From a virus: DNA of 56,332 nucleotides. Where the stretch lies: the IMG/VR virus record IMGVR_UViG_3300029787_000057, positions 1 through 56,332 of that record. The stretch is one strand, 5' to 3'. The notes below the pieces were generated by a model. That model searched no databases, was not told the origin of the DNA, and saw only the letters and a program-made list of their open reading frames with translations. The position numbers and the translations under genes are program-made. Of this stretch, positions 621 to 7,075 are shown one piece after another; position 1 is the stretch's first letter; each line of letters begins with the position of its first letter.

Positions 621-651
621 TTGTTATTCGTTGTTCATTGTGGCTTATAAT
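621..651 (+). promoter_or_regulatory. Sigma70-like promoter for leader RNA and ardC operon
   Basis: A perfect -10 box TATAAT is at 646-651. Possible -35 boxes are TTGTTA (621-626, 19-bp spacing) or TTATTC (624-629, 16-bp spacing), neither ideal. Transcription would start near 657. About 380 nt of untranslated, structured RNA follow before the ardC start at 1033. Confidence 0.55.
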
Positions 652-656
652 AGGGC

Positions 657-967
657 CACGGCGACGGGGAGCCGACTGAATCCCGCCACTCTAACAAGGT
701 GAAGTGAGACTCCAAGCGAGCAGCACTGCCAGAGTGACCTACCAGCCGGGACAATGTGCTGGAGCGTGAGAGCCAAGATCTGAAGTGAGTCTCTTAGATA
801 GCAGCACTGGATCTAGCAAGCCACGCAAAGCCTAATCAGCTACCGAACTAAAGATGCGGTGAGGACTAGGGTTGAATGATTTTGTGAAGTACGACTTGGA
901 ACGAGCAACACTGCAAAGTCAGCCCGACATCTGGACGCATCCCAACTACCGGAAAACGATTTTTGTC
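657..967 (+). ncRNA. Candidate structured leader RNA with three hairpin repeats
   Basis: There is no ORF of note here. TGAAGT occurs at 700, 781 and 885, and each is followed exactly 19 nt later by AGCAGCACTG or AGCAACACTG (719, 800, 904). Each decamer sits in the loop of a hairpin whose stem differs but still pairs: ACTC/GAGT (709-712/732-735), TAGAT/ATCTA (795-799/811-815), GACTT/AAGTC (893-897/916-920). Outer helices may close each unit: TCCCG/CGGGA (681-685/747-751), GCGTG/CACGC (764-768/822-826), GATGCG/CGCATC (853-858/936-941). CCAGC/GCTGG (742-746/758-762) would make the first a possible pseudoknot. CTACC follows each unit (739, 840, 946). The 3' end would be set by hammerhead cleavage after C967. 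Pairings were found by eye; no known RNA class was recognised. Confidence 0.6.
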
Positions 968-1017
968 TACGTCTAGAGCTGGCGTACTGATGAGGCCATA
1001 GCAAGCCGAAACAAATA
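960..1017 (+). ncRNA. Hammerhead ribozyme, type III
   Basis: All core elements are present in order. Stem III 5' strand is TTTTTG (960-965), then U16.1 (966) and C17 (967), the GUC cleavage triplet. Stem I is TACGTC/GGCGTA (968-973/981-986, one G-U pair) with loop TAGAGCT. The core CTGATGA is at 987-993. Stem II is GGC/GCC (994-996/1005-1007) with an 8-nt loop. GAA is at 1008-1010. The stem III 3' strand is ACAAA (1011-1015), pairing with 962-966, plus one pair beyond a mismatch. Stems I and II are closed and III is open, hence type III. Predicted cleavage is between 967 and 968. The ardC SD (GGAG, 1020-1023) follows directly, so cleavage would leave a short 5'-OH leader on the ardC message. 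Confidence 0.82.
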
Positions 1018-1032
1018 ACGGAGAACTAAGTG

Positions 1033-1896
1033 ATGAGCGACAAGCAAAACATAAGAGAAGAAATCACGAACAACATCATAGCAATGATGGAGAAGAACAC
1101 CGGCGAATGGATTAAGCCATTTGCTGGACTAGCAGCTAGACCGATGAATCCTAAGACAGAGAAAAACTATAGCGGATTGAATGCGTTCTATCTGTCCCTA
1201 TTGGGTAATTCCTATTGGGCCACGTTCAACCAATGGAAAGAGATCGGCGCGAAGATCAAAAAAGGATCTAAGGGAACTCGGATCATGCGGCCTCAGGCAG
1301 TGATCATAAGAGATGAGAACGGTAAGCCTGAGATGGATAGCGAAGGCAATCCCAAAACTTTCACTCAATACAAGCCCTACCCGGTATTTAGTGCCGATCA
1401 GGTTGAGGGATGGGAAGCACCAGAGTTACCTACGATCAGCAATGTCCAGCGAATAGAAAACGTTGATAAGTATCTAAGGAATCTCGGCTCGGTGATCAAC
1501 TTCACGGACGCCGGACAAGCTTTCTATGATCGGTCAAGCGATCAGATCACATTGCCGAAAGAATGCCTGTTTAACGATACCGAAGGCTTCTATTCAACAT
1601 GGTGCCACGAAGAGATCCACAAGACCGGCGCACCTAACCGACTGAACCGAATCAAGGGTAAGAAGTTCGGTGATCGTGACTATGCTTTTGAGGAACTTGT
1701 CGCAGAGATCGGCGCAGCAATGCTATGTGTACAGCTACGAGTCACCCCAACAGTTCGCCAAGATCACGCCGAATATATCGGTAGCTGGTTGAAGGCTCTA
1801 CGCAATGATAAGAAATATCTAGCGGATGCGGCGACACTAGCCGGGGAAGCGATTGATTTCATGGACGCACAACAAACTAACCGGGCCGCTGCATAG
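1033..1896 (+). CDS. ardC: ArdC-like antirestriction protein
   Basis: The 287-aa product has the ArdC layout. The N-terminal part is an ssDNA-binding domain (EEITNNIIAMMEKNTGEWIKP, then NYSGLNAFYLSLLG and WATFNQWKEIGAKIKKGSKG). The C-terminal part is a zincin-like metallopeptidase domain with HEEIH at residues 192-196 and a downstream FEELVAEIGAAMLC helix carrying a likely third ligand. ArdC proteins protect incoming DNA from host restriction. The start is ATG 1033, with GGAG ten bases upstream; an in-frame GTG at 1030 is less likely. It is the first gene of the four-gene segment between the two hammerhead ribozymes. Confidence 0.85.
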   Translation: MSDKQNIREEITNNIIAMMEKNTGEWIKPFAGLAARPMNPKTEKNYSGLNAFYLSLLGNSYWATFNQWKEIGAKIKKGSKGTRIMRPQAVIIRDENGKPEMDSEGNPKTFTQYKPYPVFSADQVEGWEAPELPTISNVQRIENVDKYLRNLGSVINFTDAGQAFYDRSSDQITLPKECLFNDTEGFYSTWCHEEIHKTGAPNRLNRIKGKKFGDRDYAFEELVAEIGAAMLCVQLRVTPTVRQDHAEYIGSWLKALRNDKKYLADAATLAGEAIDFMDAQQTNRAAA

Positions 1897-1916
1897 CGGC
1901 TCAAGGAGAACGAGAG

Positions 1917-2144
1917 ATGATCGGAAAAAAAGTGATTGCGAATTACGGAGCCGGGTATCCATTGGAGTCTGGCGTGGTGTTCCAAGTTCAGGAGTCTGAA
2001 AAGAGCGTGGCGATTGAATGGGATTCTGGTGAAACCAGTTTCGTTCCAGTTGCCAAAATCAAAACAATATTTACCTCACTTGAGCTAGTCAAAAGATTTG
2101 AAGTGACTGGCCCGGTTGGAATTTTTTGGGAGAACAAGAGATGA
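1917..2144 (+). CDS. Hypothetical small protein, SH3/KOW-like (75 aa)
   Basis: Starts MIGKKVIANYGAGYPLESG and is rich in short beta strands with a pattern like small SH3-barrel or KOW proteins (VVFQVQESEKSVAIEWDSGE). It has the standard RBS cassette (AAGGAGAACGAGAGATG). The stop overlaps the next gene by four bases (ATGA), so the two are probably translationally coupled. It lies inside the ribozyme-flanked segment. The fold assignment is only a pattern guess. Confidence 0.6.
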   Translation: MIGKKVIANYGAGYPLESGVVFQVQESEKSVAIEWDSGETSFVPVAKIKTIFTSLELVKRFEVTGPVGIFWENKR

Positions 2145-2377
2145 GTTACTTAACTGACGATCAGATAGATCAAATGGCTGACGCTGTAATGACTTCCCAC
2201 TTTTGGAATTGCGATTGGAACAACGCTCGGAGAACGGCGTTTGAATACAGCATAGACGAGTTTGGTATCAAGCCTAGGAAATCGGCGGTGTTGCTGGCTG
2301 TAAAAATCGCGCAAGCAAATTGTCACGCCCTTAACATTTCCGTGGCACAAAAAATAGCAGAGGAGAACGAGAGATGA
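2141..2377 (+). CDS. Hypothetical small protein (78 aa)
   Basis: The start is ATG 2141 (MSYLTDDQIDQMADAVMTSH), placed by GGGAGAACAAGAG just upstream; an earlier in-frame start at 2126 lacks an RBS. The protein is mostly helical and acidic. It overlaps both neighbours by four bases. The function is unknown; similar tiny genes are common beside phage antirestriction genes. Confidence 0.6.
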   Translation: MSYLTDDQIDQMADAVMTSHFWNCDWNNARRTAFEYSIDEFGIKPRKSAVLLAVKIAQANCHALNISVAQKIAEENER

Positions 2378-3159
2378 GAATTTTATCTTTTGGCGGCGGC
2401 GTAGACAGTAGCGCAGTGATACTGCACCACATACACAAAGAGGATCTAGGAATAGATCACATAGTATTTGCTGACACTGGCGCGGAGTCACAAGGCACCT
2501 ACAAGAACGTCGAGAACTTCAAGGCGATCTGTGAGGCTCGTGGCATACCATTCACCATTGTCAGACGCGAGGGCGAGAACATAACCGAGTGGGTCACAAG
2601 GTTGGGTATCGTGCCAGTTATGCCCGGAGGTGCTCACGTTTGCAGCAAGAAGTTTAAAGGTGACGTTATCCAGAAATGGGCAAGCGAGAACTTCCCCAGT
2701 CAGGCGATCACTTACCTAATCGGCATCGAGGCAGATGAGGGCCATCGCACTGCTAGATTTACCAAGCCGAAGGGCGATCAGAACGAGTACGAATACCCGC
2801 TAGTCGAGCGTGGCATGACTCGCCAAGATTGCTTGGATCTAATCGCAGAGCATGGGATGACGATTCCAAAATCGTCTTGCGTGTTCTGTCCCTTTATGTC
2901 TGAGCCGGAGATCAGAGAGGTTCGCAAGAATCCCGAAGACTGGGCAACCATCAAGCTTGTCGAGCAAAGATTCAGTGAGGAATCTGGACGCAAGCACCAA
3001 GCATGGCTGGACGCTGGCAAGCCACTTAACAAGGGCGGCAGATGCAACGCCGGACACTGGCGAAAGGATAGCTGGGCCGAAGGCACACGGCTATTTATTC
3101 GCAAGGTAGACGGCAAGCAGCTAACCGTGGACGAATGGTCAGAGCGAGTCAGCGGATAA
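2374..3159 (+). CDS. PP-loop ATPase, PAPS reductase-like
   Basis: The 261-aa product opens with the PP-loop SFGGGVDSSA (residues 5-14), the ATP-pyrophosphatase signature of the PAPS reductase/DndC/N-type superfamily. FADTGAES follows. CSKKFK and SSCVFCPF (Cys169 and Cys172) could bind metal or carry sulfur, as could a later Cys (GGRCNAGHW). Relatives include 3'-phosphoadenylylsulfate reductase and DndC-type enzymes of DNA phosphorothioation; phage copies mostly have no proven role. Next to ardC, a role in DNA modification or in countering a host modification system is plausible but is inference. The TAA stop (3157-3159) abuts the type I hammerhead. Confidence 0.8.
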   Translation: MRILSFGGGVDSSAVILHHIHKEDLGIDHIVFADTGAESQGTYKNVENFKAICEARGIPFTIVRREGENITEWVTRLGIVPVMPGGAHVCSKKFKGDVIQKWASENFPSQAITYLIGIEADEGHRTARFTKPKGDQNEYEYPLVERGMTRQDCLDLIAEHGMTIPKSSCVFCPFMSEPEIREVRKNPEDWATIKLVEQRFSEESGRKHQAWLDAGKPLNKGGRCNAGHWRKDSWAEGTRLFIRKVDGKQLTVDEWSERVSG

Positions 3160-3215
3160 TTCCAACTGATGAGTCTGGATAGTTACCAGACGAAACCCCT
3201 TCGGGGGTCTTGGAA
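3160..3215 (+). ncRNA. Hammerhead ribozyme, type I
   Basis: A complete textbook hammerhead. Stem I is TTCCAA/TTGGAA (3160-3165/3210-3215), six perfect pairs with open ends. The core CTGATGA is at 3166-3172. Stem II is GTCTGG/CCAGAC (3173-3178/3186-3191), six pairs with loop ATAGTTA. GAA is at 3192-3194. Stem III is ACCCC/GGGGT (3195-3199/3204-3208), closed by a UUCG tetraloop. Position 17 is C3209, giving GUC with cleavage between 3209 and 3210. It starts on the base after the PP-loop gene stop codon and ends 21 bases before the next ATG, so cleavage would separate the messages. The upstream product would end in a stable UUCG hairpin. Confidence 0.92.
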
Positions 3216-3236
3216 AACTAACAAGGAGAACAGTAG

Positions 3237-3407
3237 ATGAAAACGAGGCTAGTTATGGTTTCGGTAAAGAGCGACGAGGGCAAAAGCTTGTATCGTTTGG
3301 CACATGGCAAAGTTCTGGACAATGGCAAAGTGATCGTAAAGAAAAGCACTAAGGATGCAATGATCAAAGAGCTAGGGATCCAGCGCGGTGAGAATGTCCA
3401 CGGCTAG
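3237..3407 (+). CDS. Hypothetical small protein (56 aa)
   Basis: ATG 3237 has a strong RBS (AAGGAGAACAGTAG). The product, starting MKTRLVMVSVKSDEGKSLYR, looks like a small beta/alpha basic protein ending in a helix (KDAMIKELGIQRGE). It is the first gene after the type I hammerhead, so its message would begin with a cleavage-generated 27-nt leader. No family was recognised. Confidence 0.65.
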   Translation: MKTRLVMVSVKSDEGKSLYRLAHGKVLDNGKVIVKKSTKDAMIKELGIQRGENVHG

Positions 3408-6433: not shown

Positions 6434-7075
6434 ATGGAATGCAGGAGCTTAGACTTTGATTTGCTAGCAAAAGCAGAGGCAGAAACAAAAGCCAACGACA
6501 AAGGCTATTTTGTTAGGCAAGTTAATTACAGGGACACGATTGATTTCATACTAAATATACACTACGCAAAAAGGGTGCCATCAATCTCTTATGCCTACGG
6601 ACTATTCTATGAATCAGAATTGACCGGGGTTGTGACTTATGGAAAACCGGCTAGTAGAAATTTGTGTGAGGGAATTTGTGGTGTGGAATATTCCCCGATT
6701 GTATTTGAACTGAATCGTCTGGTTCTTAAAAACAACAAGAAAAACGAAAGCAGTTTCTTAATATCCCAAAGTTTAAAGATGTTACCAAAGCCAATGGTAA
6801 TCGTCAGCTATGCCGATACAGAACAGGATCATGTTGGTTACGTTTATCAGGCAACGAATTTTCTATTCACTGGCACTACGAAAGAACGAACAGATATGGC
6901 AAGCGAGGATGGAAAACATAGTAGACACGATCTCGGCGATCCCGATCAAAGAAAAAAAAGATGGGCAAAACACCGCTATATTTTTTTTGTGGGTAGCAAA
7001 AAGGATAAGAAAAATCTTTTAGGTAAATTGAAGTATCCAATAAAACCCTACCCAAAAAATATCGAGGGAAACTAG
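6434..7075 (+). CDS. mom: Mom-like DNA modification protein
   Basis: The 213-aa product has the pattern of phage Mu Mom-family proteins: HYAKRVPSISYAYGLF, GVVTYGKPASRNLCEG, ELNRLVLKNN, SYADTEQDHVGYVYQATNF and a C-terminal DGKHSRHDLGDP stretch. Mom proteins have a GNAT-like fold and add a carbamoylmethyl-type group to adenines, shielding phage DNA from restriction. With ardC upstream it makes a second antirestriction layer. The start is ATG 6434. The family call is from recalled motif order, and the exact modification is unknown here. Confidence 0.75.
   Translation: MECRSLDFDLLAKAEAETKANDKGYFVRQVNYRDTIDFILNIHYAKRVPSISYAYGLFYESELTGVVTYGKPASRNLCEGICGVEYSPIVFELNRLVLKNNKKNESSFLISQSLKMLPKPMVIVSYADTEQDHVGYVYQATNFLFTGTTKERTDMASEDGKHSRHDLGDPDQRKKRWAKHRYIFFVGSKKDKKNLLGKLKYPIKPYPKNIEGN

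Follow-up and report, generated by a model that had tools for sequence, protein, structure and literature searches.

Hammerhead ribozymes flanking an ardC gene block and a candidate structured leader RNA in the early region of a marine phage record

Hammerhead ribozymes of prophages have been described in clusters, in which multiple copies flank single genes or short gene blocks, and the processing of long transcripts was proposed for them (Perreault et al. 2011, PMC3088659). The same study reported in vivo cleavage in E. coli for three hammerheads clustered around ardA of A. tumefaciens, an ardA gene immediately following a hammerhead in each of three Legionella strains, and in vitro cleavage by tandem phage hammerheads; spliced or circular RNA was also raised, its detection being unsuccessful (PMC3088659). 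More generally, hammerheads and twisters in bacteria show enrichment close to phage-related genes and to one another (PMC10085705). The role of natural phage hammerheads has been a question since 2011. Here, we analysed the virus record IMGVR_UViG_3300029787_000057 from the IMG/VR database over positions 1 to 56,332 (the whole stretch of 56,332 nucleotides, hereafter the window), in which two hammerheads, HH1 and HH2, lie on one coding strand and bracket an ardC-like antirestriction gene, two small genes and a PP-loop gene. The first-pass annotation, made from the sequence alone, had placed both ribozymes and the genes between them correctly; it had also presented the arrangement as not known to be described, which is contradicted by the prophage clusters reported around genes and gene blocks, including ardA (PMC3088659). 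We further characterised the RNA upstream of HH1, and we propose that the early transcript is probably cut by both hammerheads, HH1 releasing a structured leader.

Two hammerheads around the ardC segment

Both motifs (Table 1) were compared with phage loci and contigs designated by L numbers. Many of these loci were selected for carrying a hammerhead or a leader, and the frequencies given below are not population estimates. HH2 has the type I layout, i.e. a complete core (3166-3172) with CUGANGA and GAAA, three stems (I 3160-3165/3210-3215, II 3173-3178/3186-3191, III 3195-3199/3204-3208 with a UUCG loop), an open stem I and UH before the cut. Its loop II (UAGUU, 3180-3184) forms a pseudoknot with AACUA (3216-3220), a tertiary contact that covaries in relatives. 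Across 400 dinucleotide-shuffled versions of the window, no type I motif was as good as HH2. In an alignment of 26 HH2-type sequences, 94.6 % of cells were paired and covariation reached 0.389, compared with 0.148 after shuffling and at most 0.118 with slid partners. This covariation was seen in stems II and III and in the pseudoknot between loop II and the tail, while stem I says little because the search pattern largely fixed its letters. Among HH2 relatives, the stem III hairpin is conserved and the UUCG loop is not.

The HH2-layout pattern was found in at least 120 IMG/VR stretches. Among the matches listed, 77 unique type I motifs follow the upstream stop codon at a median of 4 nt and are cut a median of 33 nt ahead of the next start; at least 4 bp of complementarity between loop II and tail was present in 45 of these 77 motifs listed, where 13 would be expected with shuffled tails and 15 with swapped ones. 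Wherever a locus carried two or more hammerheads (n = 27), all copies within it were on the same strand. In L183 and L208, a stretch of about 4.5 kb carries four consecutive type I hammerheads, all on the same strand.

HH1 is a type III motif with a complete core (CTGATGA 987-993, GAAA 1008-1011), an open stem III (962-966/1011-1015), a stem I (968-973/981-986) and a stem II (994-996/1005-1007). Type III motifs as good as HH1 appeared twice in the same 400 shuffles. When the window was aligned with L015, L016, L020, L275, L286 and L287 (n = 7), all 16 pairs were formed (100 % of cells), and covariation was 0.414, falling to 0.139 on shuffling and to 0.071 or less with slid partners. It was seen in stems I, II and III as well as in the GCU/AGC contact between loops I and II, two of whose three pairs had both sides changed among the seven sequences. 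The HH1 motif thus also occurs in the closest ArdC relatives (L015, L016) and in near relatives of the window (L020, L275); additional genes stand between it and ardC in L015, L016 and L275.

Neither ribozyme was called by Rfam at its gathering score, at which the whole window gave nothing; this score is a cut-off of the library and no property of a ribozyme. HH2 has the layout of RAGATH-1 type I hammerheads from end to end, yet its 22.8 bits against RAGATH-1-hammerhead (RF03152) are far under the curated cut-off of 56.3 (18.3 bits against Hammerhead_3). Likewise, HH1 has the type III core of Hammerhead_3 (RF00008), its best family, and scores 17.7 bits, far under the cut-off of 48.5. Such scores, together with the short stem II of HH1, would suit decayed or inactive relics; this is very unlikely, as the cores are intact and the stems and pseudoknots covary, as selection predicts. 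Covarying in relatives and lying far above chance, both motifs are real, as the first-pass annotation had it.

The leader between the presumed early promoter and HH1

Upstream of HH1, the plus strand holds no sizeable open reading frame, and the region is nearly unchanged in L020 and L059. The differences among these phages are compensatory (e.g. GATTTTG/CAAAGTC, GGTCTCG/CGAGACC and GGATACA/TGTAACC at the same helix). In an alignment of ten leader sequences, 40 proposed pairs were formed in 97.4 % of cells, 24 of the 40 being changed on both sides, and covariation amounted to 0.509 versus 0.201 shuffled and 0.04-0.08 with slid partners. The class carries a conserved 5' element, GGCGACGGGGAGCC...AAUCCCGCC; because this element is invariant in the alignment, its pairing rests on few changes, i.e. 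a closing pair that is C-G, U-A or G-C in L276, L282 and L286. Thermodynamic folding of the leader alone gave no support (z = +1.18), so that the case for the leader, as for HH1, rests on covariation.

A covariance model of the leader recognised sequences outside its training set, namely L212 and L265 (238.8 bits), L295 (205.3), L280 (127.6), L287 (79.8) and L201 (61.4); not all of them are distant, L295 being near the training sequence L281 and L212/L265 near L284 and L290. The model had no match in 883 kb of control contigs, i.e. viral contigs retrieved by a loose leader-repeat pattern whose matches were mostly due to chance. The pattern of the 5' element was found in 24 IMG/VR stretches, and its exact form in none of 84,980 prokaryote genomes, a search that would miss diverged copies. 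No family of Rfam 15 matched the leader, and blastn against 50,697 phage records returned no match for the leader or for the whole region. Judged from these comparisons, the leader is a structured RNA class outside Rfam 15, common to many hammerhead-bearing phages, and this changes the reading of HH1.

The TATAAT element ahead of the leader is perfect in 9 of 22 leader loci, with a mean best score of 3.23 versus 1.99 in random windows (maximum 2.82 of 300). This position recalls the put RNA of phage HK022, a suppressor of pausing and termination in cis that is about 70 nt long with two stem-loops, of which putL stands directly after the early promoter (PMC9378689). The leader could be a put-like antiterminator acting in cis on RNA polymerase, with the hammerhead detaching it later as a secondary event. 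Like putL, it begins right after the early promoter; moreover, it is made of repeated modules and is replaced at the same promoter by other structured leaders (L275), so that leaders at this position look exchangeable. We nevertheless regard a put-like role as unlikely, given the length of the leader (about 310 nt, and up to about 600 nt in L015/L016) against that of put; a link to put in sequence or structure was neither seen nor specifically looked for.

Other RNAs were encountered around these promoters. The same promoter position is occupied by another structured leader, one that has a UAAAGCGAUAC element, in L275 (5330-5483), L146, L156, L176, L254, L277 and L278; in L275, the same type III motif as HH1 comes after it. 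The leaders of L015 (3200-3865) and L016 (2600-3257), about 600 nt long, contain about six GUCCCG..CGGGCA modules and end with a type III hammerhead. Just past the leader and before the first gene, a conserved hairpin, CAGAGCGCACUGGC..GCUAGUGCUUUCGAGU, is present in L147, L153, L201, L212, L280, L284 and L290; its outer stem seems to covary, and it had no Rfam match in L280, L284 and L290.

Proposed processing of the early transcript

A type III hammerhead lies directly 3' of the leader in the window, L020, L282, L283, L286, L287, L289 and L294, and a type II hammerhead, farther from the leader and ahead of ardC, in L147, L153, L201, L212, L265, L280, L284 and L290. All 12 loci with both leader and ardC (the window, L020, L147, L153, L201, L212, L265, L280, L284, L286, L290 and L295, several of them closely related) have a hammerhead of type II or III in between. 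In Rfam, the type II copies of L280, L284 and L290 score above the cut-off and the type III copies of L286 and L287 just below it. Close upstream of ardC, the hammerhead is of type III in the window and L020, of type II in L153, L201, L212/L265, L280, L284 and L290, and of type I in L012/L237, L164/L182 and L175; a relaxed motif scan, allowing weak stems and short core insertions, gave ribozymes near ardC in L015, L016, L201, L212 and L265. In L287, the PP-loop gene is the first gene after leader and hammerhead. The 119 contigs obtained with the loose pattern (L025-L143), which are other phages and offer a suggestive comparison only, contained a single ardC match, a copy of L020. In L282, L283, L289 and L294, the type III hammerhead holds the translation start of the first gene, with a GGAG ribosome-binding site in the stem II loop and the AUG in stem III; the activity of these ribozymes is less certain because of an insertion after core A9, which is one U in L283 and L289 and a hairpin in L282 and L294. 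A distant ArdC-bearing phage (L022/L023, 9761-9828) was also noticed to have a hammerhead-like motif of type II, its stem III 13 bp long, 3.8 kb past the ardC start.

HH1 and HH2 could be independent, ordinary intercistronic phage ribozymes, the four-gene segment merely lying between them. Type I hammerheads do separate many genes that are unrelated to one another (the 82 downstream proteins fall into 55 clusters), paired hammerheads around ardC plus the PP-loop gene are absent in relatives, and the identities of flanked genes vary in the prophage clusters (Perreault et al. 2011, PMC3088659). This explanation is possible, if rather doubtful: hammerheads of types I, II and III recur upstream of ardC in several lineages, and an independent phage (L164/L182) brackets ardC and two small genes with two type I hammerheads, so that the ardC side does not look random.

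Processing of one transcript into a leader, an ardC message and a downstream message, as suggested at first pass, is the simplest reading of two same-strand hammerheads. The early operon would be transcribed from a promoter near 646, and the first 310 nt or so of the transcript would fold into a large structured RNA. Cleavage by HH1 just ahead of ardC would give the leader a defined 3' end and detach it from the mRNA, leaving an ardC message with a 5'-OH that starts right at the stem I hairpin (968-986). HH2 would cut past the PP-loop stop codon and ahead of the following ribosome-binding site. The stem III hairpin and a 2',3'-cyclic phosphate would then form the 3' end of the ardC message, and the downstream message would begin 27 nt ahead of its own AUG. 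These end groups and the 3' hairpin agree with the earlier annotation. Enzymes that sense a 5'-monophosphate or require a free 3'-OH should degrade RNAs with such capped ends more slowly, in keeping with what is generally known of RNase E, RppH and 3' exonucleases. From the anatomy, covariation and placement of these elements and their recurrence in other phages, we infer that the transcript is cleaved in the cell, that the resulting ends are stabilising and that the leader has an independent life.

Several observations weigh against this processing scheme. Stem II of HH1 has three pairs only, and the HH1 RNA in isolation shows no preference for the hammerhead fold (folding z = +0.36). The presumed promoter lacks a good -35 element at standard spacing, and a sigma-70 scan makes no call there. 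Four leader loci (L154, L161, L185 and L226) have no hammerhead near the leader 3' end; their only copies are of type I and lie about 700-1,230 nt away from the start of the leader. HH2 is missing from most relatives of the PP-loop gene, and the genes bracketed together vary. The pairing of the two ribozymes, for which relatives with a single copy had been named beforehand as counter-evidence, is therefore not a conserved unit: HH1 is kept in L015, L016 and L275, in whose examined sequence no HH2 was found, no hammerhead follows the PP-loop gene in ten of its relatives (L001-L005, L007-L010 and L013), and L006 and L011 have one upstream, rather than downstream, of it.

The earlier suggestion that an RtcB-type ligase might join the ends of the 2,242-nt segment to make a circular mRNA is extremely unlikely. 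A 5'-OH and a 2',3'-cyclic phosphate, the predicted ends, are established RtcB substrates, and RtcB may be present in hosts. The record itself, however, encodes no RtcB or RNA ligase, so that the idea has no support beyond end chemistry; in addition, the two ends of the segment derive from different ribozymes, and comparable clusters were examined for circles with none detected (PMC3088659).

To a wider proposal we give about even weight, namely that the leader would be a phage noncoding RNA class previously undescribed in the open-access literature, starting at the early promoter, combining a 5' element with repeated modules, and separated from the mRNA by a ribozyme of interchangeable type (II or III) that often immediately precedes an antirestriction gene. 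Some phages have the ribosome-binding site and AUG of the first gene within this ribozyme, in which case RNA release and translation start would compete. As a guess, the leader might be a trans-acting RNA or an RNA acting on RNA polymerase early in infection.

Gene content and comparison with known systems

The segment between the two predicted cuts (968-3209, 2,242 nt) contains only ardC, two small open reading frames and the PP-loop gene (Table 1). The ardC product combines an ArdcN domain with a zincin-like metallopeptidase domain, as ArdC proteins do. The terminase of this marine phage record is closest to those of Pelagibacter phages (57 % identity), and a tRNA and tmRNA scan found none. 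Farther along the early region, a Mom-like DNA modification gene (6434-7075; PF25680, 1.7e-35) is a second likely anti-restriction function.

Table 1. Positions of the ribozymes, leader elements and genes in the window
Feature	Position	Strand	Remarks
TATAAT, -10-like element of presumed early promoter	646-651	+	conserved in L020, L059, L276
Structured leader RNA (candidate)	658-967	+	about 310 nt; modelled part 659-946; 3' end would come from HH1 cut
Leader 5' element	659-684	+	hairpin 659-662/671-674, possible pseudoknot 667-670/681-684
Internal-loop module UGAAGURNG...CARCACUG, three repeats	699-729, 780-810, 884-914	+	flanking helices covary
HH1, type III hammerhead	962-1016	+	predicted cleavage 967/968; loop pseudoknot GCU 978-980 / AGC 1000-1002
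ardC-like antirestriction gene	1033-1896	+	Pfam PF08401 (ArdcN) 3.4e-23, PF18818 (MPTase-PolyVal) 3.4e-40; phrog_7245 anti-restriction protein 1e-68
Small open reading frame, 75 amino acids	1917-2144	+	no family match
Small open reading frame, 78 amino acids	2141-2377	+	no family match; homologue in L147 (5129-5359)
PP-loop / PAPS-reductase-like gene	2374-3159	+	phrog_424 1.8e-34; 14 IMG/VR relatives
HH2, type I hammerhead	3160-3220	+	predicted cleavage 3209/3210; adjoins PP-loop stop codon, before next ribosome-binding site
First gene of downstream message	3237-3407	+	start 27 nt past HH2 cut

The leader resembles HK022 put, by analogy only, as a phage RNA with stem-loops that comes from an early promoter; it differs from put in being several times longer, in its fold and in the ribozyme at its end. 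The large RNAs GOLLD and ROOL are often found in phages. The leader is like them a large structured noncoding RNA (PMC12286853), and unlike them in that it matches neither of the two nor any other Rfam family. Strongly covarying and a candidate for a new RNA family, it is the newer part of the finding. Between structured RNA and ardC a hammerhead is kept while its type changes, and its role is therefore testable, whether in leader release, in 5'-end formation of the antirestriction message, or in both.

As in the clusters of Perreault et al. (2011), the window has at least two same-strand hammerheads that flank a gene block, stand beside an antirestriction gene and are stabilised by pseudoknots. 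Unlike the ardA cluster of that study, it combines ardC with a PP-loop gene, belongs to a tailed phage record and has an upstream ribozyme that ends a large structured leader. The window is thus a new example of the known clustered-hammerhead arrangement, with ardC replacing ardA.

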